A stretch of 64,000 nt of DNA from Bacteroidetes bacterium MedPE-SWsnd-G2 (lineage in GTDB: Bacteria > Bacteroidota > Bacteroidia > Flavobacteriales > Flavobacteriaceae): assembly GCA_001874335.1 (NCBI GenBank), contig MPDE01000003.1, forward strand, positions 62,001-126,000. Reading direction: 5' to 3'. A program made the position numbers and the translations under genes. The notes below the pieces were generated by a model. It was given only the letters and a program-made list of their open reading frames with translations. It did not search any database and was not told the origin of the DNA. This document shows, piece by piece, positions 3,576 through 15,451 of the stretch (positions are counted from its first letter, which is position 1; every line of letters starts with the position of its first letter).

Positions 3576-4724
3576 ATGTCCAAATCTTATATTCTAATTC
3601 TTTTTCTTTTTGTAAGTCTGTCGTCTAATGCACAAGCAATTTTTGAGTCTGTTTATTCTGAAAAATTAGGTGCTGATAGAGAAATTAAAGTCATGCTTCC
3701 TCGAGGATACTCTAATGAAGATGATAAAAGATATCCGGTAATTTATGTGTTTGATGGAGACTATCTTTTTGAGCCTGTGTCTGGTGATGTAGATTATTTC
3801 TCTTATTGGGAAGATATGCCTGAAGCTATTGTTGTTGGTGTGAAACAAGCAGAATCGAGAGATGAAGATTGTTTTTATTCCGAACAAAATTCTATGCCAG
3901 TTGAAACGGGAGCTTCATTTTTTGAGTTTGTTGGATTTGAATTGGTGTCATACATTGATAAAACGTATAAAACCGAAGTGTTTAGAGTGGCTTTAGCGCA
4001 TGGTAAAACTGCAAATTTCATTAATTATTTCTTGTTAAAACCGCAGCCGTTGTTTAACGCTTACATAGTATTGAGTCCAGATTTAGCTCCAAATATGGAT
4101 GCTTACATTACAGAAAGTGTTCAAAATATGGAGTCAAAAGTGTTTTACTATATGGCGACATCTACTAACGACGTTAAGCGATTAAAAGAAGAAACTACAA
4201 GTTTTAACACCAATCTTGAAGGTGTAGATAATAAAAACTTTCTTTATAATTTTGATACGTTTGACGGACCATCTCATTATTCTTTACCAGCACATGCTAT
4301 ACCTAAAGCTATAGAAAGTATTTTTCTTGTCTTCCAACCAATCAGTAAAAAAGAGTATAAAGAAACCATCCTTAAGTTAGAAGGCTCTCCAGTTGAATAT
4401 TTATTAGAAAAGTATAGCACTATTGAAGAATTGTTTGGCATCGATAAGCAAATATTAATAAATGATTTTAAAGCTATCGCAGCCGCAATTAAGAAAACAG
4501 AGAAGTTTGAATATTTTGAAGAATTAGGAAAGATCGCAAGAAAAGAATATCCTGATGCCTTGTTAGGACATTACTATTTAGCTCGTTTTTATGAAGAATC
4601 AGGAGAACCTAAAAAGGCAATGAAAACGTATAGGTCGGCGTATGTGTTAAATGAAATTGGTGGCTTGACAAAGGATATGATGTTGGAGCGCGCTGATAAT
4701 ATTAAAGCAGATTTTGGATATTAA
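3576..4724 (+). CDS. Exported alpha/beta-hydrolase (esterase-family) protein, nucleophile apparently lost
   Basis: The 382-residue protein has a Sec signal peptide (cleavage near SNAQA), an N-terminal esterase-like domain (KVMLPRGYSNEDDKRYPVIY, then DGDYLF) and a helical C-terminal part with a TPR-like unit (residues 325-375, HYYLARFYEESGEPKKAMK). It resembles enterochelin-esterase/antigen-85-like hydrolases. In that fold the elbow normally reads GHSxGG; here the equivalent segment is ALAHGKTANF, with glycine where the serine should be. A candidate histidine survives in GPSHYSLP. Its stop overlaps the radA start as TAATG, indicating translational coupling. It may be a non-catalytic binding protein; the true role is unknown. 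Confidence 0.75.
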   Translation: MSKSYILILFLFVSLSSNAQAIFESVYSEKLGADREIKVMLPRGYSNEDDKRYPVIYVFDGDYLFEPVSGDVDYFSYWEDMPEAIVVGVKQAESRDEDCFYSEQNSMPVETGASFFEFVGFELVSYIDKTYKTEVFRVALAHGKTANFINYFLLKPQPLFNAYIVLSPDLAPNMDAYITESVQNMESKVFYYMATSTNDVKRLKEETTSFNTNLEGVDNKNFLYNFDTFDGPSHYSLPAHAIPKAIESIFLVFQPISKKEYKETILKLEGSPVEYLLEKYSTIEELFGIDKQILINDFKAIAAAIKKTEKFEYFEELGKIARKEYPDALLGHYYLARFYEESGEPKKAMKTYRSAYVLNEIGGLTKDMMLERADNIKADFGY

Positions 4725-6085
4725 TGGCTAAAGTTAAAACCACCTTTTTTTGTCAGAATTGCGGAAGTCAGTTTGCCAAATGGCAGGGGCAATGTACGTC
4801 ATGCAAAAACTGGAATACACTGGTTGAGGAGATCATTGAAAAAGAGGACAAGAAAAACTGGAATCCGAATGTTTCAACCGTTAAAAAACGAAATTCAAAA
4901 CCGTTAAAAGTTCAGGAAATTGATAGCGCTCAAGACGCACGATTGGTAACATTGGATAATGAATTTAATCGTGTTTTAGGTGGTGGTGTTGTTCCTGGGT
5001 CAATGATATTATTAGGAGGAGAACCCGGTATAGGAAAGAGTACTTTATTACTTCAAATAGCACTCACTTTACCTTTTAAAACACTTTATGTTTCAGGTGA
5101 AGAAAGTCAGAAACAAATTAAAATGCGTGCTGAGCGCATAAACCCTGAAAGCGATTTTTGCTACATTCTTACCGAAACAAAAACTCAAAACATCTTTAAA
5201 CAAATTGAAGATTTAGAACCTGATGTTTTAATTATAGACTCTATTCAAACGCTTCATAGTGATTATATAGAATCATCGGCAGGATCGATTTCTCAAATTA
5301 AAGAGTGTACTTCAGAATTAATCAAATTTGCAAAAGAAACCGCAACCCCTGTAATTTTAATTGGGCATATTACTAAAGATGGTCATATTGCTGGGCCGAA
5401 AATTCTGGAGCATATGGTAGATACCGTACTTCAGTTTGAAGGGGATAGAAATCATGTGTTTAGAATTTTAAGAGCGAATAAAAACAGATTTGGCTCTACT
5501 AACGAATTAGGAATCTATGAGATGCAAGGTTCTGGTTTAAGAGAAGTTTCTAATCCTTCAGAAATCTTAATCACTAAAAAGGATGGAGATTTAAGCGGGA
5601 ATGCTATTGCAGCGACACTTGAAGGAATGCGCCCTCTTATGGTTGAAGTACAAGCGTTGGTAAGCACAGCTGTTTATGGGACACCTCAAAGAAGCGCTAC
5701 AGGTTTCAATGTAAAACGCCTAAATATGTTACTGGCCGTTTTAGAAAAAAGAGCAGGGTTTAGATTAGGCGCTAAAGATGTGTTTTTAAATATTACGGGA
5801 GGAATAACTGTTGATGATCCCGCTATTGATTTGGCTGTGGTTGCATCTATTTTGTCTTCAAATGAAGATGAACCTCTGCTAAGTAACTTTTGTTTTGCTG
5901 CCGAAGTTGGTCTGTCTGGAGAAATTAGGCCGGTACAGCGGGTAGAGCAAAGAATTTTGGAAGCTGAAAAATTAGGGTTTTCAACCATTTTTGTTTCTAA
6001 ATACAATAAGATTAGTTTAAAGAATACTGCAATCCAGGTGAGATTACTTTCTAAAATTGAAGACCTAGTAGGTGTAATCGTATAG
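4724..6085 (+). CDS. radA: DNA repair protein RadA (Sms)
   Basis: RadA is a RecA-like helicase acting in branch migration during recombinational repair. The 453 residues carry, in order, a C4 zinc finger (Cys10, Cys13, Cys24, Cys27), a Walker A motif GEPGIGKST (residues 99-107), Walker B around DVLIIDSIQ (167-175), the RadA-specific KNRFG motif (253-257) and a C-terminal Lon-protease-like domain. The ATG overlaps the previous stop by one base. All key residues are intact. Confidence 0.97.
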   Translation: MAKVKTTFFCQNCGSQFAKWQGQCTSCKNWNTLVEEIIEKEDKKNWNPNVSTVKKRNSKPLKVQEIDSAQDARLVTLDNEFNRVLGGGVVPGSMILLGGEPGIGKSTLLLQIALTLPFKTLYVSGEESQKQIKMRAERINPESDFCYILTETKTQNIFKQIEDLEPDVLIIDSIQTLHSDYIESSAGSISQIKECTSELIKFAKETATPVILIGHITKDGHIAGPKILEHMVDTVLQFEGDRNHVFRILRANKNRFGSTNELGIYEMQGSGLREVSNPSEILITKKDGDLSGNAIAATLEGMRPLMVEVQALVSTAVYGTPQRSATGFNVKRLNMLLAVLEKRAGFRLGAKDVFLNITGGITVDDPAIDLAVVASILSSNEDEPLLSNFCFAAEVGLSGEIRPVQRVEQRILEAEKLGFSTIFVSKYNKISLKNTAIQVRLLSKIEDLVGVIV

Positions 6086-6231: not shown

Positions 6232-9200
6232 ATGAGTACGAAATTCACTGAATATAAAGGGCTTAATTTACCTAACGTAGCAAGCGAAATGCTAGGCTAT
6301 TGGGAAGCTAATTCAATTTTTGAAAAAAGTGTGGAAACCAGAGAAGGACAAAAGCCTTTTGTTTTTTTTGAAGGACCTCCATCAGCTAATGGTTTACCAG
6401 GTGTACACCATGTTTTAGCTCGTGCCATTAAAGATATTTTTCCGAGATATAAAACCATGAAAGGGTTTCAAGTAAAGCGTAAAGCTGGTTGGGATACACA
6501 TGGATTACCTATAGAATTAGGAGTTGAAAAGGAATTAGGCATAACCAAAGAAGATATTGGGAAAACTATTTCTGTAGAAGATTATAATGCAGCTTGTCGT
6601 AAAGCGGTAATGCGTTATACAGATGTTTGGAATGACCTAACTCAAAAAATGGGGTACTGGGTAAATATGGATGACCCATATATTACCTATGAACCAAAAT
6701 ACATGGAGAGTGTTTGGTGGTTGTTAAAGGAAATCTATAACAAATCGTTGTTGTATAAAGGGTATACTATTCAACCATATTCTCCAAAAGCAGGTACAGG
6801 ATTAAGTTCTCATGAGTTAAATCAGCCAGGTACTTACCAAGATGTTACAGATACTACCGTTGTTGCTCAGTTTAAAGCAAATGCTAACACACTACCAGAG
6901 TTTTTGCAAAATGAAGGAGATGTGCATTTCTTAGCTTGGACGACTACACCTTGGACCTTGCCTAGTAATACGGCCTTAACCGTGGGGCCCAAAATTGATT
7001 ATGTATTAGTAAAAACATTTAATCAATACACCTTTGAGCCAATAAACGTGGTTTTAGGAAAGCCTTTAGTTGCTAAACAGTTTTCTGGAAAGTTTGTTGC
7101 TGTAGAAAATGCAGAAGGTTTAGAAACATATTCCGCAGGAGATAAAAAGATTCCGTATTACGTGGTTAAAGCGTTTAAAGGTAAAGACTTGGTGGATATC
7201 ACCTACGAACAATTATTGCCTTATGCCTTGCCAAATGACAATCCAGAAAATGCTTTTAGAATCATTTCTGGGGATTTTGTAACAACAGAAGACGGCACAG
7301 GAATTGTACATACAGCGCCAACTTTTGGTGCAGATGATGCAATGGTTGCAAAACAAGCCAAGCCAGAAGTCCCTCCAATGTTGGTTAAAGATGAAAATGA
7401 CAACTTGGTTCCTTTGGTGAATCTACAAGGAAAGTTTAGACCAGAAATGGCTGAATTTGCTGGGAAGTATGTAAAGAATGAGTATTACGCAGATGACGAA
7501 GTTCCAGACAAATCTGTAGATGTAGAACTTGCCATAAAATTAAAAGAAGAAAACAAGGCCTTTAAGGTTGAAAAATATAAGCATAGTTACCCAAATTGTT
7601 GGAGAACCGATAAACCAATCTTATACTACCCATTAGATTCTTGGTTTATTAAGGTAACCGATGTAAAGGATAGGATGCATGAGTTAAATACAACCATTAA
7701 CTGGAAACCGAAATCAACTGGTGAAGGTCGATTTGGAAATTGGCTAGCAAATGCAAACGATTGGAATTTATCACGTTCAAGATATTGGGGAATACCATTA
7801 CCAATCTGGAGAACTGAAGATAGAAAGGAAGAAATCTGTATCGGCTCTGTTGAAGAATTAAAAGCAGAGATGGCTAAAGCGGTTGAGGCTGGAGTGATGT
7901 CTGAAGACATTTTTGCAGATTTTGAAGTAGGAAACAATTCCGAAGAAAACTATGCCAAGTTAGATTTGCATAAAAACATAGTGGATGCCATTGTTTTAGT
8001 TTCAGATTCTGGTCAACCTATGAAACGTGAAAGCGACTTAATTGATGTTTGGTTTGATTCGGGTTCAATGCCCTATGCACAATGGCATTACCCGTTTGAA
8101 AATAAAGAATTGATAGATGAAAATAAAACATTCCCTGCCGATTTTATTGCAGAAGGTGTAGATCAAACAAGAGGTTGGTTTTATACACTTCACGCTATTG
8201 GTACAATGGTTTTTGATTCGGTAGCCTATAAAAATGTAGTGTCTAACGGATTAGTTTTAGATAAAAACGGGCAGAAAATGTCTAAGCGTTTAGGAAACGC
8301 GACAGATCCGTTTGAAACCTTAGAAACTTATGGTGCAGATGCCACAAGATGGTACATGATAAGTAATGCTAACCCTTGGGATAACTTAAAATTTGACTTA
8401 GAAGGGATAGAGGAAGTGAAGCGTAAGTTCTTCGGAACCTTATATAATACGTATAATTTCTTTGCTTTATATACCAATTTAGATGGGTTTAAATATGCTG
8501 AAGATGAGATAGAAATTAGTCAACGTCCCGAAATTGACCGTTGGATTTTATCAGAATTAAACACTTTGGTTAAAAAGGTAGATGAATTTTATGCAGCCTA
8601 TGAGCCAACAAAAGCGGCAAGAGCTATTTCAGATTTTACCCAGGATTATTTAAGTAACTGGTATGTAAGATTATGTAGAAGGCGTTTTTGGAAAGGTGAA
8701 TATGAAGCAGATAAGATTTCGGCATATCAGACGTTATACACCTGCATGGAAACTATTGCAAAATTGGGAGCGCCAATAGCACCATTTTTCATGGATAAAT
8801 TGTACTTAGATTTAAATAAAGTTACAGGTAAAGAGACCTTTGAAAGTGTTCATTTAGCCAATTTCCCTGTTTATAATGCCTCTTTAGTAGATAAAACTTT
8901 AGAGCGCAAAATGGAAAATGCACAAACCATTTCATCTTTGGTATTATCACTAAGAGCTAAGGAGATGATTAAGGTGCGTCAACCATTGCAAAAGATAATG
9001 ATACCGGTTGATAGCGAGCAACAAAAAGAAGAAATTGAAGCGGTTTCAGGTTTGATAAAACACGAGGTTAATGTGAAGGAAATTGAACTTCTACATGACG
9101 CTTCAGATATATTAGTAAAGCAAATAAAACCAAACTTCAAAGTTTTAGGACCACGTTTTGGTAAAGACATGAAAGCTGTTGCTCAGTCAATTAGAGAATT

Positions 9201-9636
9201 AAATGCAGATGATATCAAAAAATTTGAGAAAAACGGGGGCTTAGATGTTGCAATTGGTCAAAAAAATATTACTTTAGAACTCAATGATGTGGAGATTACA
9301 TCGCAAGATATTGAAGGTTGGTTAGTTGCTAACGATGGGGCATTAACAGTGGCATTAGACGTTACTATTAATGAAAATTTACGAAACGAAGGAATTGCTC
9401 GTGAACTTGTAAATAGAATTCAAAACTTGCGTAAAGATTCTGGGTTTGAAGTAACAGACAGAATTTTAGTAACTCTGCAACATAATGATAATATGGTTTC
9501 AGCTATTGATGGATTTAAATCTTATATAATGGCAGAAACGTTATCAGACGACCTTGAAACTATTGATAACCTAGACAATGGTACAGATATTGCATTTGAC
9601 GATATAAATACCAAATTGTCAATCAAAAAAAATTAA
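6232..9636 (+). CDS. ileS: Isoleucyl-tRNA synthetase, eukaryote-like (IleRS2) type with GXHH signature
   Basis: IleRS charges tRNA-Ile and edits valine. The 1134-residue length and sequence fit the eukaryote-like class (IleRS2). The class I signature is in GPPSANGLPGVHH (residues 48-60): the HXGH positions read G57-V58-H59-H60, that is, GXHH. The second signature is KMSKR (682-686). The editing domain (roughly 190-400) contains the WTTTPWTLPSNTAL segment and GTGIVHTAPTFGADD. The C-terminal anticodon-binding region (about 770-1130) contains DRWILSELNTL. The next gene follows after four bases. A TAATTTCG sequence at 6200-6207 is a near-match to the promoter consensus. Confidence 0.97.
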   Translation: MSTKFTEYKGLNLPNVASEMLGYWEANSIFEKSVETREGQKPFVFFEGPPSANGLPGVHHVLARAIKDIFPRYKTMKGFQVKRKAGWDTHGLPIELGVEKELGITKEDIGKTISVEDYNAACRKAVMRYTDVWNDLTQKMGYWVNMDDPYITYEPKYMESVWWLLKEIYNKSLLYKGYTIQPYSPKAGTGLSSHELNQPGTYQDVTDTTVVAQFKANANTLPEFLQNEGDVHFLAWTTTPWTLPSNTALTVGPKIDYVLVKTFNQYTFEPINVVLGKPLVAKQFSGKFVAVENAEGLETYSAGDKKIPYYVVKAFKGKDLVDITYEQLLPYALPNDNPENAFRIISGDFVTTEDGTGIVHTAPTFGADDAMVAKQAKPEVPPMLVKDENDNLVPLVNLQGKFRPEMAEFAGKYVKNEYYADDEVPDKSVDVELAIKLKEENKAFKVEKYKHSYPNCWRTDKPILYYPLDSWFIKVTDVKDRMHELNTTINWKPKSTGEGRFGNWLANANDWNLSRSRYWGIPLPIWRTEDRKEEICIGSVEELKAEMAKAVEAGVMSEDIFADFEVGNNSEENYAKLDLHKNIVDAIVLVSDSGQPMKRESDLIDVWFDSGSMPYAQWHYPFENKELIDENKTFPADFIAEGVDQTRGWFYTLHAIGTMVFDSVAYKNVVSNGLVLDKNGQKMSKRLGNATDPFETLETYGADATRWYMISNANPWDNLKFDLEGIEEVKRKFFGTLYNTYNFFALYTNLDGFKYAEDEIEISQRPEIDRWILSELNTLVKKVDEFYAAYEPTKAARAISDFTQDYLSNWYVRLCRRRFWKGEYEADKISAYQTLYTCMETIAKLGAPIAPFFMDKLYLDLNKVTGKETFESVHLANFPVYNASLVDKTLERKMENAQTISSLVLSLRAKEMIKVRQPLQKIMIPVDSEQQKEEIEAVSGLIKHEVNVKEIELLHDASDILVKQIKPNFKVLGPRFGKDMKAVAQSIRELNADDIKKFEKNGGLDVAIGQKNITLELNDVEITSQDIEGWLVANDGALTVALDVTINENLRNEGIARELVNRIQNLRKDSGFEVTDRILVTLQHNDNMVSAIDGFKSYIMAETLSDDLETIDNLDNGTDIAFDDINTKLSIKKN

Positions 9637-9640
9637 CACT

Positions 9641-10024
9641 ATGGCTACAGATACTAAAGTAAGATACTCTGATGCTCACCTAGATGAGTTTAAAGTGCTT
9701 ATCCTAGAAAAAATGGAAAAAGCAGAACGTGATTTAGAGCTTATTAAAAGTGCCTACATGAATAATTTCACTAATGGTACTGACGATACATCTCCTACCT
9801 TTAAGGCTTTTGAAGAAGGTAGTGCAACGATGAGTAAAGAAGCAAATTCGCAATTAGCTATTCGTCAAGAGAAGTTCATTAGAGATTTAAAAAATGCTTT
9901 AATTCGAATCGAAAATAAAACGTATGGCATTTGCAGAGTAACTGGAAAATTAATCAATAAAGAACGATTAAAATTAGTGCCTCATGCTACTTTAAGTATT
10001 GAAGCGAAGAATATGCAAAAATAA
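9641..10024 (+). CDS. TraR/DksA family protein lacking the zinc-binding cysteine set
   Basis: The 127 residues have a helical N-terminal half and the DksA-like C-terminal block around ALIRIENKTYGICRVTGKLI (86-105) followed by ERLKLVPHATLSIEAK. DksA-type proteins bind the RNA polymerase secondary channel and modulate initiation. Here only one cysteine exists in the protein (Cys98); the CxxC-x17-CxxC zinc site is absent. This form is usual in flavobacteria as far as I recall and resembles zinc-independent DksA paralogues. It starts four bases after ileS and is followed by a terminator, so it is the last gene of the ileS unit. Confidence 0.88.
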   Translation: MATDTKVRYSDAHLDEFKVLILEKMEKAERDLELIKSAYMNNFTNGTDDTSPTFKAFEEGSATMSKEANSQLAIRQEKFIRDLKNALIRIENKTYGICRVTGKLINKERLKLVPHATLSIEAKNMQK

Positions 10025-10107: not shown

Positions 10108-10770
10108 ATGACTCCTAAGAAAACATTAATATTTGTGGTGCTTATTTTGCTAATTGATCAAATTAGTAAGATTTATGTAAAAACTCATTTTGAGTTACAT
10201 GAGCGCGTTGAAGTGTATTCTTGGTTTCAAATTGCTTTTGTAGAGAATGATGGTATGGCCTGGGGTACTAAAATCAGTGATTTTATTTCTATTATTTCAG
10301 ATCGTACTGCTAAACTGTGTTTAACCTTGTTTAGGATTTTTGCTGTTGCCGGAATTGGATATTGGCTTTATAAATCGGTTAAAAAAAATGGAAGCATAGC
10401 ATTGATTGTCGCAGTTTCATTAATATTTGCAGGTGCTCTGGGTAATATAATTGATTCCGTTTTTTATGGCGTCTTCTTTGAAGATAGTTACGGGAAGGTA
10501 GCTCAGTTTTTACCTGAAGAAGGTGGTTATGATGCCTTATTTCATGGTAAAGTAGTGGATATGCTATATTTCCCAATATGGGAAGGAACACTTCCTAATT
10601 GGATTCCAATATACGGCGGAAATACAGCTTCTTTCTTTGACCCAGTATTTAATATTGCTGACATGGCAATTAGTACTGGTGTTGGTATATTAATTGTTTT
10701 TAATGGTAAAGTATTTAGTAAATCTGATGAAGCAGATTCAGGAGACTTTCCAATTTCTCAAAACGTATAA
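10108..10770 (+). CDS. lspA: Lipoprotein signal peptidase (signal peptidase II) with a long insertion
   Basis: LspA cleaves lipoprotein signal peptides in the inner membrane before the lipidated cysteine. The 220 residues include four predicted membrane segments, the ENDGMAWG block (46-53), and the two catalytic aspartates in GNIID (Asp116) and FNIADMAIS (Asp185). These aspartates are 69 residues apart, against about 27 in the E. coli enzyme, because of an insertion at roughly 121-175. Such long forms are typical of Bacteroidota. The window encodes many lipoprotein substrates. Its last 13 bases overlap the end of the convergent cyclo-ligase gene. Confidence 0.95.
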   Translation: MTPKKTLIFVVLILLIDQISKIYVKTHFELHERVEVYSWFQIAFVENDGMAWGTKISDFISIISDRTAKLCLTLFRIFAVAGIGYWLYKSVKKNGSIALIVAVSLIFAGALGNIIDSVFYGVFFEDSYGKVAQFLPEEGGYDALFHGKVVDMLYFPIWEGTLPNWIPIYGGNTASFFDPVFNIADMAISTGVGILIVFNGKVFSKSDEADSGDFPISQNV

Positions 10771-11417: not shown

Positions 11418-13211
11418 ATGGATCAACCAAATTTAGCACTACAAATTAAAACTTTACCACATCAACCTGGTGTTTACCAATATTTTGATGCGACAGATAC
11501 TATAATTTATGTGGGTAAAGCTAAAGATTTAAAAAAACGGGTTAGCTCATATTTTAATAAACAACACGATTACGGAAAGACTAAAGTGTTGGTTAAAAAA
11601 ATAGCCTATTTAAAACATATTGTAGTTGCCACAGAAACTGATGCTCTATTATTGGAAAATAATTTAATTAAAAAGCATCAGCCAAGGTATAATGTATTGC
11701 TTAAGGATGATAAATCGTATCCTTGGATTTGCATAAAAAAAGAACGTTTTCCTCGAGTTTTTCCAACGCGTAGAATGATAAAAGATGGGTCTGAGTATTT
11801 TGGACCTTATACCAGTATGAAAACGGTTTCTACGCTTTTAGATTTAATAAAAGGCTTGTTTAAACTAAGAACATGTAATTATGATTTATCACAATCTAAA
11901 ATAGATGCGCATAAATATAAAGTGTGTTTAGAATACCATCTTGGAAATTGTTTAGGGCCTTGTGAAGGATACCAAACTGAAGAGAGTTACCAAGAAAGTG
12001 TTATAGCAATTAGAGAAATATTAAAGGGAAATTTCAAAGATTCACTTTCAGGATTTAAATCCCAAATGAAATCTCTTGCTTCCGATTTGCAGTTTGAAGA
12101 GGCTCAACTTATAAAAGAGAAAATTGAGATTCTGGAAAACTATCAGGCTAAATCTACCATCGTAAACCCTAAGATTAGTAATGTAGATGTGTTTTCAATT
12201 ATTAGTGATGAATCCTACGCTTACGTTAACTTTTTACAGTTGAGTTATGGCTCGATTATAAGATCTCACACCATGGAGATTAAAAAGAAACTGCAAGAAT
12301 CTGATGCCGAATTGTTGCAATTGGCGATTACTGAAATCCGACAGCGATTTAATTCATTGTCAAAAGAAATTTACGTTCCTTTTAAGGTGAATATGGGTAA
12401 TGAAATTAAAGTTTCGGTACCGCAGTTGGGAGATAAAAAACGTATTGTCGAATTGTCTCTTAGAAACGCCAAGTATTTTAGAATGGATAGGTTTAAGCAG
12501 GAGAAAATTACAGATCCAGAACGGCATTCTAATAGAATTATGGCTCAAATGAAAGCCGATTTGTTGCTCTCTGAAGAGCCCAGGCATATTGAATGTTTTG
12601 ATAACTCTAATATTCAAGGTACAAATCCCGTTGCAGCCTGTGTGGTGTTTAAAAACGGGAAGCCAAGTAAAAAAGATTACAGACATTTTAATATAAAAAC
12701 TGTTGAAGGTCCCGATGATTTTGCATCGATGGAAGAGGTGGTTTATAGAAGGTATAAAAGATTGTTAAACGAGGAATCACCATTACCTCAATTAGTAATT
12801 ATTGATGGGGGTAAAGGGCAGTTGTCTTCGGCATTAAAAAGTATCGATGCTCTTAACCTGAGATCTACAATAACTGTTATCGGAATAGCAAAACGATTGG
12901 AAGAATTGTTTTATCCAGACGACCCAGTGCCATTGTATTTGGATAAGAAAAGTGAAACACTTAAAATTATTCAACAATTACGAAATGAAGCGCATCGATT
13001 TGGTATAGAACATCACAGAAATAGAAGAAGTAAAAATGCTTTGGTTTCCGAATTGGAAACAATACCGGGAATAGGTGAAAAATCTGTTGTAGATTTAATG
13101 AAAACTTTTAAAACGGTTAAAAAAGTATCTCAGGCAAGTTTGTCGGAGTTACAAGATGTTGTTGGGCTAAAAAGAGCTCAAATAATCACGACTTATTATT
13201 CGAAAAAATGA
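11418..13211 (+). CDS. uvrC: Excinuclease ABC subunit C
   Basis: UvrC makes the dual incisions of nucleotide excision repair. The 597 residues show an N-terminal GIY-YIG nuclease domain (PGVYQYFD ... IIYVGKAKDLKKRVSSYF), a cysteine-bearing linker (CLEYHLGNCLGPCEGY), a UVR helical hairpin (LQFEEAQLIKEKIEILENY), the RNase-H-like second nuclease (ECFDNSNIQGTNPVAACVVF, and VIIDGGKGQL) and C-terminal helix-hairpin-helix repeats (LETIPGIGEKSVVDLM). I placed the start at 11418 because the 37 codons upstream do not look like UvrC and because of the adjoining promoter element. The stop overlaps the next ATG by four bases. Confidence 0.96.
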   Translation: MDQPNLALQIKTLPHQPGVYQYFDATDTIIYVGKAKDLKKRVSSYFNKQHDYGKTKVLVKKIAYLKHIVVATETDALLLENNLIKKHQPRYNVLLKDDKSYPWICIKKERFPRVFPTRRMIKDGSEYFGPYTSMKTVSTLLDLIKGLFKLRTCNYDLSQSKIDAHKYKVCLEYHLGNCLGPCEGYQTEESYQESVIAIREILKGNFKDSLSGFKSQMKSLASDLQFEEAQLIKEKIEILENYQAKSTIVNPKISNVDVFSIISDESYAYVNFLQLSYGSIIRSHTMEIKKKLQESDAELLQLAITEIRQRFNSLSKEIYVPFKVNMGNEIKVSVPQLGDKKRIVELSLRNAKYFRMDRFKQEKITDPERHSNRIMAQMKADLLLSEEPRHIECFDNSNIQGTNPVAACVVFKNGKPSKKDYRHFNIKTVEGPDDFASMEEVVYRRYKRLLNEESPLPQLVIIDGGKGQLSSALKSIDALNLRSTITVIGIAKRLEELFYPDDPVPLYLDKKSETLKIIQQLRNEAHRFGIEHHRNRRSKNALVSELETIPGIGEKSVVDLMKTFKTVKKVSQASLSELQDVVGLKRAQIITTYYSKK

Positions 13212-15451
13212 GAAGATTAATTGCTATTACATGTTTGTTTCTTTCCTTCATATCCATGCAAGGGCAGACTTTTGATAGCGATTATAATGATAAAAAAGTG
13301 GGGCTGGTTTTGAGTGGAGGTGGGGCTAAAGGGTTTGCGCATATTGGTGTTTTAAAGGTTATTGATAGTTTAAACATTAAAATAGATTATATAGCTGGTA
13401 CAAGTATGGGTGCTGTTGTTGGCTCTTTATACGCAAGCGGGTATTCTGCTCGTCAATTAGATTCTATTTTTAATAGTCAAAATTTTGATCAGGTCATAAA
13501 TGATTATCTGCCTCGGAAGGCAAAAACGTTTTATGAAAAGGATAATTCAGAAAAATATGCCCTTTCATTACCGTTTGATAAGTTTAAATTATCACTACCT
13601 AAGTCTTTATCTCGTGGTCAGAATATCTATAATTTGCTTTCAAAATTGACGCTTCATGTTTCAGAAGTAGAAGAATTTGAGAATTTACCAATTCCTTTTT
13701 TCTGTATTGCTACCGATATTGAAACAGGTAAAGAGGTGATGTTAGATTCGGGTAATTTACCTCAAATGGTAAAAGCGAGTTCTTCTTTTCCTTCACTGTT
13801 TTCTCCAGTTAATGTCAATGATAGGTTGTTAGTTGACGGTGGTGTGACAAATAATTATCCAATCCAAGAGTTAAAGGATAAGGGTATGGAAGTGATTATA
13901 GGAGTGGATGTTCAAGATAGTTTAGTGGATAGAAATAAAATGAAATCTGCAACAGATATACTTCTTCAAGTGAGCAATCTGCCGACTATAAATGCTATGG
14001 TCGAAAAATCAAAGGCAACAGATATTTATATCAAACCAGATATAAAAGGGTTTACAGTAATGTCATTTAGTAAAGGGCGTCAAATTATTGATAATGGGGA
14101 GCAAGCGGGGCGATTAAAGGCAAAGGAGTTGGATTTACTCCCAAAAAGAAAAGAGTCTTGGGAGAGTAATGTGAAAATTGTTAGCATGGATTCTATCCCA
14201 ATAAACAATATTTATTTAAGCGGTAACTCAAGATACAGTCGTTCATATATTTTAGGGAAATTAAAAATAAAGAGCAATCAGATCACTAAGTATTCTGATT
14301 TTAATGATGGGGTGAACAATTTAGTAGCCACAAACAACTTCGATTCCTTTGATTATTATTTTAAAAGATCAGACGAATCAATAGGTTATGATCTCTATGC
14401 AAATTTGACTGAAAGTGAGAATAGTATGTTCGTGAAATTAGCATTGCATTACGATAATCTTTATAAAACAGGCTTGCTTTCTAACTTTACCAAAAAGCAT
14501 CTTCTTTTTGGTAATGATGTATTGTCAATAGACTTTATACTTGGAGATAATGTGAGGTATAATTTAGATTATTTTATTGATAAAGGTTTTTATTGGAGTA
14601 TTGGGCTGACATCACGATTCAATCAGTTTAATAGAAATATTCCCGTAACTATAGCAGAAAGTGCCTTGTCTACTTCTTTTGATCTTTCTGGAGTAAACAA
14701 GTTAGAAGTAGATTATGAAGATTTTACAAATCAAATTTATGTGCAAACCCTATTTACAAAGAGTCTTGCCTTAAGATTGGGGTTTGAGCATAAACATCTT
14801 AAGTTTAAGACCGAAACGCTTACAGTAAATCCCGATGATGAAGATTTTGTTTTTGAAAATAGCAATTATTTAAGCTTCTACGGTTCTTTGATTTTGGATA
14901 ATTTTGATGATAAATTTTTTCCAACATCGGGCTGGTATTTTAAAGGTGATTTCAATCTTTATGTTTACGGCAGTGATTTTAATACTGAATTCGAAGAATT
15001 TTCTCTAGCAAAGGCAGATGTAGGGTTTGCTTTTCGTATTGGAAATAAAGTAAGTTCAAAAATAAGTACCCAAGGCGGATTTAAAATAGGCGATAAATCA
15101 ACAAGAACTTTAGATTTTGCACTTGGTGGTGATAACATTAATCTTATCAACAACATTGAAACTTTTTACGGTTACGACTATTTGTCTTTAATCGCTAATA
15201 GTTTTGTAAAATCGGAGTTAGCCTTAAGTTATGAGCCAGTAAAAGGTCATTTTTTAACAGGTTATGCCAACATTGCTAATGTCGAAGATGATATGTTCGA
15301 AACAGGAGATTGGGCAAATTGGGCAGATTATACAGGTTTTGGATTGGGCTACAATTACGTTACTTTCATTGGACCTTTGGGGGTGGTTTATTCTTATTCA
15401 CCTGAAGTAAAGAAAAGCTTTTGGAATTTTAATTTGGGCTTTAGATTCTAA
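13208..15451 (+). CDS. Patatin-like phospholipase fused to a POTRA and outer-membrane beta-barrel
   Basis: The 747-residue protein has a signal peptide (cleavage near MQGQT), a patatin domain (about 30-315) with the oxyanion glycine motif SGGGAKG (36-42), nucleophile Ser66 in GTSMG, and catalytic Asp210 in VDGG, then a POTRA-like segment (about 330-400, NNIYLSGNSRYSRSYILGKL) and a C-terminal BamA/TamA-type barrel ending in FNLGFRF with a terminal Phe. This order is that of PlpD-type (type Vd) proteins, in which the lipase is carried to the surface by its own barrel. All catalytic residues are present. The start overlaps the uvrC stop as ATGA. Surface release of the lipase is inference. Confidence 0.9.
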   Translation: MRRLIAITCLFLSFISMQGQTFDSDYNDKKVGLVLSGGGAKGFAHIGVLKVIDSLNIKIDYIAGTSMGAVVGSLYASGYSARQLDSIFNSQNFDQVINDYLPRKAKTFYEKDNSEKYALSLPFDKFKLSLPKSLSRGQNIYNLLSKLTLHVSEVEEFENLPIPFFCIATDIETGKEVMLDSGNLPQMVKASSSFPSLFSPVNVNDRLLVDGGVTNNYPIQELKDKGMEVIIGVDVQDSLVDRNKMKSATDILLQVSNLPTINAMVEKSKATDIYIKPDIKGFTVMSFSKGRQIIDNGEQAGRLKAKELDLLPKRKESWESNVKIVSMDSIPINNIYLSGNSRYSRSYILGKLKIKSNQITKYSDFNDGVNNLVATNNFDSFDYYFKRSDESIGYDLYANLTESENSMFVKLALHYDNLYKTGLLSNFTKKHLLFGNDVLSIDFILGDNVRYNLDYFIDKGFYWSIGLTSRFNQFNRNIPVTIAESALSTSFDLSGVNKLEVDYEDFTNQIYVQTLFTKSLALRLGFEHKHLKFKTETLTVNPDDEDFVFENSNYLSFYGSLILDNFDDKFFPTSGWYFKGDFNLYVYGSDFNTEFEEFSLAKADVGFAFRIGNKVSSKISTQGGFKIGDKSTRTLDFALGGDNINLINNIETFYGYDYLSLIANSFVKSELALSYEPVKGHFLTGYANIANVEDDMFETGDWANWADYTGFGLGYNYVTFIGPLGVVYSYSPEVKKSFWNFNLGFRF

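Follow-up and report, generated by a model that had tools for sequence, protein, structure and literature searches.

Type 2 isoleucyl-tRNA synthetases (IleRS2) include enzymes in which the first and third positions of the class I signature HXGH are swapped. This G/AXHH motif was named and tied to mupirocin hyper-resistance by Brkic et al. in 2023, through exchanges made in both directions (PMC10485003). In their set of 163 IleRS2 sequences, 86 carried G/AXHH and 77 carried HXGH, no IleRS1 carried the swapped form, and the motif was proposed to have arisen at least twice, with a reversion in Deinococcus-Thermus. For naturally swapped enzymes, mupirocin Ki values reach the millimolar range, i.e., 10 mM in S. 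griseus (PMC4861432) and 6.6 mM for the ALHH enzyme of D. radiodurans, with an 823-fold loss upon change to HVGH and a shift of kcat from 45.5 to 24.4 per s and of KM for isoleucine from 44 to 17.9 uM (PMC10485003). The opposite exchange, to GVHH, raised Ki from 0.20 to 35 uM in T. thermophilus IleRS2 and from 1.08 to 460 uM in P. megaterium IleRS2 (PMC10485003). The link between GXHH and hyper-resistance, on which the preliminary description of the locus studied here relied, is therefore a published one, with the nuance that the P. megaterium GVHH enzyme is laboratory-made and its wild type carries HVGH. Motif, mechanism, and wide distribution are all already known from the 2023 study. The word stem “bacteroid” is absent from the main text of PMC10485003, its source-data tree may well show fixation of the motif in Bacteroidota, and at the level of titles and abstract openings we noticed no statement of such fixation in the open-licence literature.

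The window analyzed here, i.e., the whole 64,000-nucleotide stretch to which all positions refer, encodes an IleRS2 with a swapped signature (ileS, 6232–9636, + strand; an open reading frame with ATG start, 1134 aa). At 6400–6411 (+ strand) it reads ggtgtacaccat (codons ggt gta cac cat), which encodes Gly57-Val58-His59-His60 in place of HXGH; DNA, translation, and alignment agree on this, and the preliminary description had placed the motif correctly to the base. GXHH occurs once in the translated protein, at residue 57, and a search for H-x-G-H over the whole 1134-aa IleRS, which would have located a canonical signature elsewhere in the catalytic site, found none. When aligned with entries of known structure, the GVHH stretch fell without gaps onto GVHH of 8C8W (the P. 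megaterium IleRS2 GVHH mutant) and, at the same site, onto HVGH of both 8C8U (wild-type PmIleRS2) and 1ile, which we take to be the T. thermophilus enzyme. These comparisons with solved structures were made by sequence, with the identities of 8C8U and 8C8W drawn from the data statement of PMC10485003. In an alignment of 16 sequences from diverse members of the phylum, G57, H59, and H60 were invariant. As judged from these alignments, GVHH sits at the catalytic signature and is neither a chance match nor a misalignment.

Overall, the remainder of the protein has the features of a complete synthetase. It scored 992 bits against TIGR00392 (ileS), for which the curated cut-off is 621.4, and the Pfam domains matched included tRNA-synt_1, Anticodon_1, and a C-terminal DUF5915 (PF19302, residues 941–1133, 9052–9630, + strand; 203 bits against a cut-off of 27). 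The KMSK core, the anticodon domain, and a threonine-rich stretch were all present: a protein motif search placed the second class I signature, KMSKR, at residues 682–686 (8275–8289, + strand), and the threonine-rich stretch WTTTPWTL, presumably part of the editing domain, spans residues 236–243 (6937–6960, + strand) and was invariant in the 16-sequence alignment.

Next, we considered enzyme type and copy number. The best PDB relatives by sequence were the PmIleRS2 entries 8C8U, 8C8V, 8C8W, and 8C9D (778–791 bits), followed by 1ile, while the PmIleRS1 entries 8C9E and 8C9F scored 298 and 306 bits. The protein also carries HYPFE (residues 619–623, 8086–8100, + strand), a mark named in a figure legend of PMC4861432 as characteristic of eukaryotic and eukaryote-like IleRS. 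By similarity and by this mark, the window enzyme is assigned to type 2, i.e., it is eukaryote-like, as the preliminary description had stated. That description had also supposed the enzyme to be the only IleRS of the organism and had called for a check for a second ileS. In the 3.04-Mb genome (completeness 99.76%, contamination 0.26%), a single match exceeded the TIGR00392 cut-off, and three other frames accounted for the rest of the matches at E ≤ 0.001 (4 of 5 in the protein search, 6 of 7 in the family-model search). Stretches of these frames exceed the cut-offs set for tRNA ligase models of valine, leucine, and methionine. A second, canonical IleRS is thus rejected for this 99.76% complete assembly, none having been found by either protein or family-model search. 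With no other IleRS found in the genome, the window ileS encodes the housekeeping enzyme, and this part of the preliminary description follows from the single copy.

To place the swapped signature in a wider context, we examined a phylum sample of 118 genomes, each counted once, in which a few families and genera make up much of the list. A match to the enzyme was found in all 118, and all 118 carried G[I/V]HH at the signature, including one genome (G067) in which the frame has an in-frame stop further on. Among the 29 genomes from the same class as the window, 26 had GIHH and 3 had GVHH, and the 89 phylum genomes outside this class comprised 59 with GIHH and 30 with GVHH. A family-model search restricted to matches at E ≤ 1e-100 returned one IleRS match in each of 116 phylum genomes (116/116), with the enzyme seen as part matches in two of them (G057 and G103). 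The preliminary description had implied that the motif was special to this organism, which was overstated: the motif is present in every phylum genome sampled and had already been published as a kind.

The same pattern was found in named loci, for which the best 80 of 589 matches were considered, a selection that leans toward close relatives. Of these 80, 76 carried G[I/V]HH and the other 4 ended before the motif; identity to the window IleRS over the best segment ranged from 53 to 84%. Their titles (best 80 of 589) named flavobacteria, Bacteroides, Prevotella, Alistipes, Pedobacter, and Chitinophagales from animal-gut, pond, plant-root, and marine sources. Among them, identity was highest for an uncultured Flavobacteriaceae bacterium (84%) and for Aestuariibaculum marinum (82%), and the window is accordingly assigned to a flavobacterium close to these two. 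Outside the phylum, four named IleRS2 records gave GIHH (Acetoanaerobium), GVHH (Nonomuraea), HIGH (Paenibacillus), and HAGH (Sutcliffiella), which agrees with the published mixed distribution, although four records are no survey.

At the second signature, KMSKR was found in 27 of the 29 same-class genomes of the phylum sample vs. 1 of the 89 outside the class, where the other forms were KMSKS (80 genomes), KMSKT (6), and KMAKS (2); for the named loci, 4 of the best 80 of 589 gave no reading at this signature.

Two further observations concern individual relatives. In the draft genome G067 (110 contigs), the ileS frame is broken by one in-frame TAG. The stop may reflect a base or assembly error, as no other IleRS match at E ≤ 1e-100 is listed for this genome. 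Separately, four plasmid-labelled records of Riemerella anatipestifer, of about 102–105 kb, carry an ileS ~68% identical to that of the window.

The neighborhood of ileS bears on how the gene was inherited. Upstream lies radA (sms; 4724–6085, + strand; over the TIGR00416 cut-off), a DksA-like gene follows directly downstream (9641–10024, + strand; below curated cut-offs), and lspA, for signal peptidase II, comes next (10108–10770, + strand; over the NF011369 cut-off). We counted neighbors in the 54 of the 80 named loci with full flanks, each at least 8,000 bases long: the DksA-like gene was near ileS in 40 of 54 and lspA in 36 of 54. Of the genes upstream, radA was near it in 3 and an esterase gene in 2, and 9 of the 54 had none of the four tested neighbors. 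The recurrence of the downstream DksA-like gene and lspA speaks for vertical inheritance of ileS, which is most likely how the gene was acquired; the 9 loci with none of the neighbors count against it. Elsewhere in the window, a 281-aa protein (395–1240, − strand) aligns below cut-off with glycogen/starch synthase models over their N-terminal half only (residues 13–248 on model positions 4–237 of 489), the pattern expected of a protein lacking the second glycosyltransferase domain. A 747-aa patatin-like protein (13208–15451, + strand) has a long C-terminal part, and its matches to phospholipase models are weak, none of them reaching the cut-off. tRNA genes were looked for in the window and none was found.

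Taken together, the window ileS very likely encodes a sole housekeeping IleRS2, most likely inherited vertically, whose natural GXHH signature predicts very weak sensitivity to mupirocin, and it is best read as one unremarkable orthologue of a housekeeping enzyme found across the phylum. Following the mechanism proposed by Brkic et al. (PMC10485003), His59 would replace the first histidine of HXGH in isoleucine activation, His60 would be the usual fourth signature residue, and Gly57 would occupy the site of the lost histidine. Binding of mupirocin would push back the tip of the helix, and the third-position histidine would then clash with the nonanoic-acid part and the ring of the drug, a steric exclusion proposed to raise Ki by orders of magnitude. 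Isoleucine charging in the organism would consequently be only very weakly sensitive to mupirocin. Hyper-resistance of the window enzyme is a prediction by homology, and we infer catalysis by His59, a high Ki, and whole-cell resistance each by analogy. The enzyme background contributes to Ki as well, as the engineered GVHH enzymes, at 35 and 460 uM, fall short of the millimolar values.

Several other explanations can be weighed against these data. We attach next to no probability to the reading in which a sequencing error or a misalignment produced the motif, or in which it marks a dead or paralogous synthetase beside a working canonical enzyme: the frame is open over its full length with its domains intact, HXGH is absent elsewhere in the protein, the genome holds a single IleRS, and all readable relatives share the motif, so that we consider this reading refuted. 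A second possibility is selection of the swap by natural inhibitors of IleRS other than mupirocin that occur in the habitat, e.g., thiomarinol, which is related to mupirocin. Thiomarinols are produced by marine Pseudoalteromonas (PMC3069032), and marine-named flavobacteria are among the close named relatives (best 80 of 589), yet gut members carry the swap just as these do, as judged from the titles of the same loci. The swap would thus be older than any one habitat, and selection of this kind appears improbable.

Greater weight belongs to the idea that the phylum IleRS2 fixed the swap long ago as a structural alternative, kept since reversion takes two changes at catalytic residues, with resistance as a by-product rather than what maintains it; here we see the chances as evenly balanced. 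No reversion was found in the 118 phylum genomes or in the 76 readable named loci (best 80 of 589), whose titles name varied habitats, as would be expected if the alternative were fixed. In addition, the D. radiodurans enzyme largely keeps its activity after the exchange of ALHH for HVGH (PMC10485003), so that there would be little selection for the swap in the absence of the drug. However, Brkic et al. suggest antibiotic pressure, and the natural reversion reported in Deinococcus-Thermus indicates that reversion is possible (PMC10485003). This alternative is compatible with a sole, vertically inherited housekeeping IleRS2, as both predict resistance and the two are not exclusive.

The absence of exceptions among the samples, together with the single copy, suggests an old and stable state rather than a species-level adaptation. 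Specifically, we consider it probable that the phylum, as defined in the genome collection, charges isoleucine only with an inverted-HIGH IleRS, and that the swap is ancestral and entrenched and provides a phylum-wide hyper-resistance of the target instead of a local adaptation. If the prediction holds, members of the phylum would be insensitive to mupirocin at the target level, with consequences for the use of mupirocin in selective media and for the annotation of resistance genes, in which the intrinsic ileS should not be scored as an acquired resistance gene. A published model predicts that mupirocin raises the diversity of Bacteroidaceae isolates. What is added here, i.e., a phylum sample without exception at the motif and with one IleRS match per genome, is a small extension of modest value.

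The window enzyme can finally be set beside the systems already described. Like the IleRS2 of S. griseus and D. radiodurans (ALHH), it is of type 2 with the first and third signature positions swapped; for those enzymes millimolar Ki values have been measured, whereas the resistance of the window enzyme is predicted from sequence. With the PmIleRS2 mutant in 8C8W it has in common the type of IleRS and the tetrapeptide GVHH, which is identical in sequence and position. Wild-type PmIleRS2, by contrast, has the canonical HVGH and coexists with an IleRS1, while the window enzyme has GVHH by nature and is the sole IleRS found in its genome. The two also differ at the second signature (KMSKR vs. KMSKS in PmIleRS2) and at Leu674, where PmIleRS2 has His582 (position counted from the structure-entry alignment; His582 from PMC10485003), and the size of the resistance effect is uncertain because of these two differences. 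Finally, MupA and MupB, the staphylococcal mupirocin-resistant ileS2 products, are likewise IleRS2 relatives linked to mupirocin resistance. The window IleRS scored 746 bits against the MupA model and 748 against the MupB model, far below the NCBIfam cut-offs of 1900, and its identity to plasmid MupA is about 36.5% (tblastn); a MupA-like acquired gene was rejected on these model scores and on gene context. MupA and MupB are encoded by an extra plasmid copy, whereas the window ileS is a single housekeeping gene of chromosomal type.
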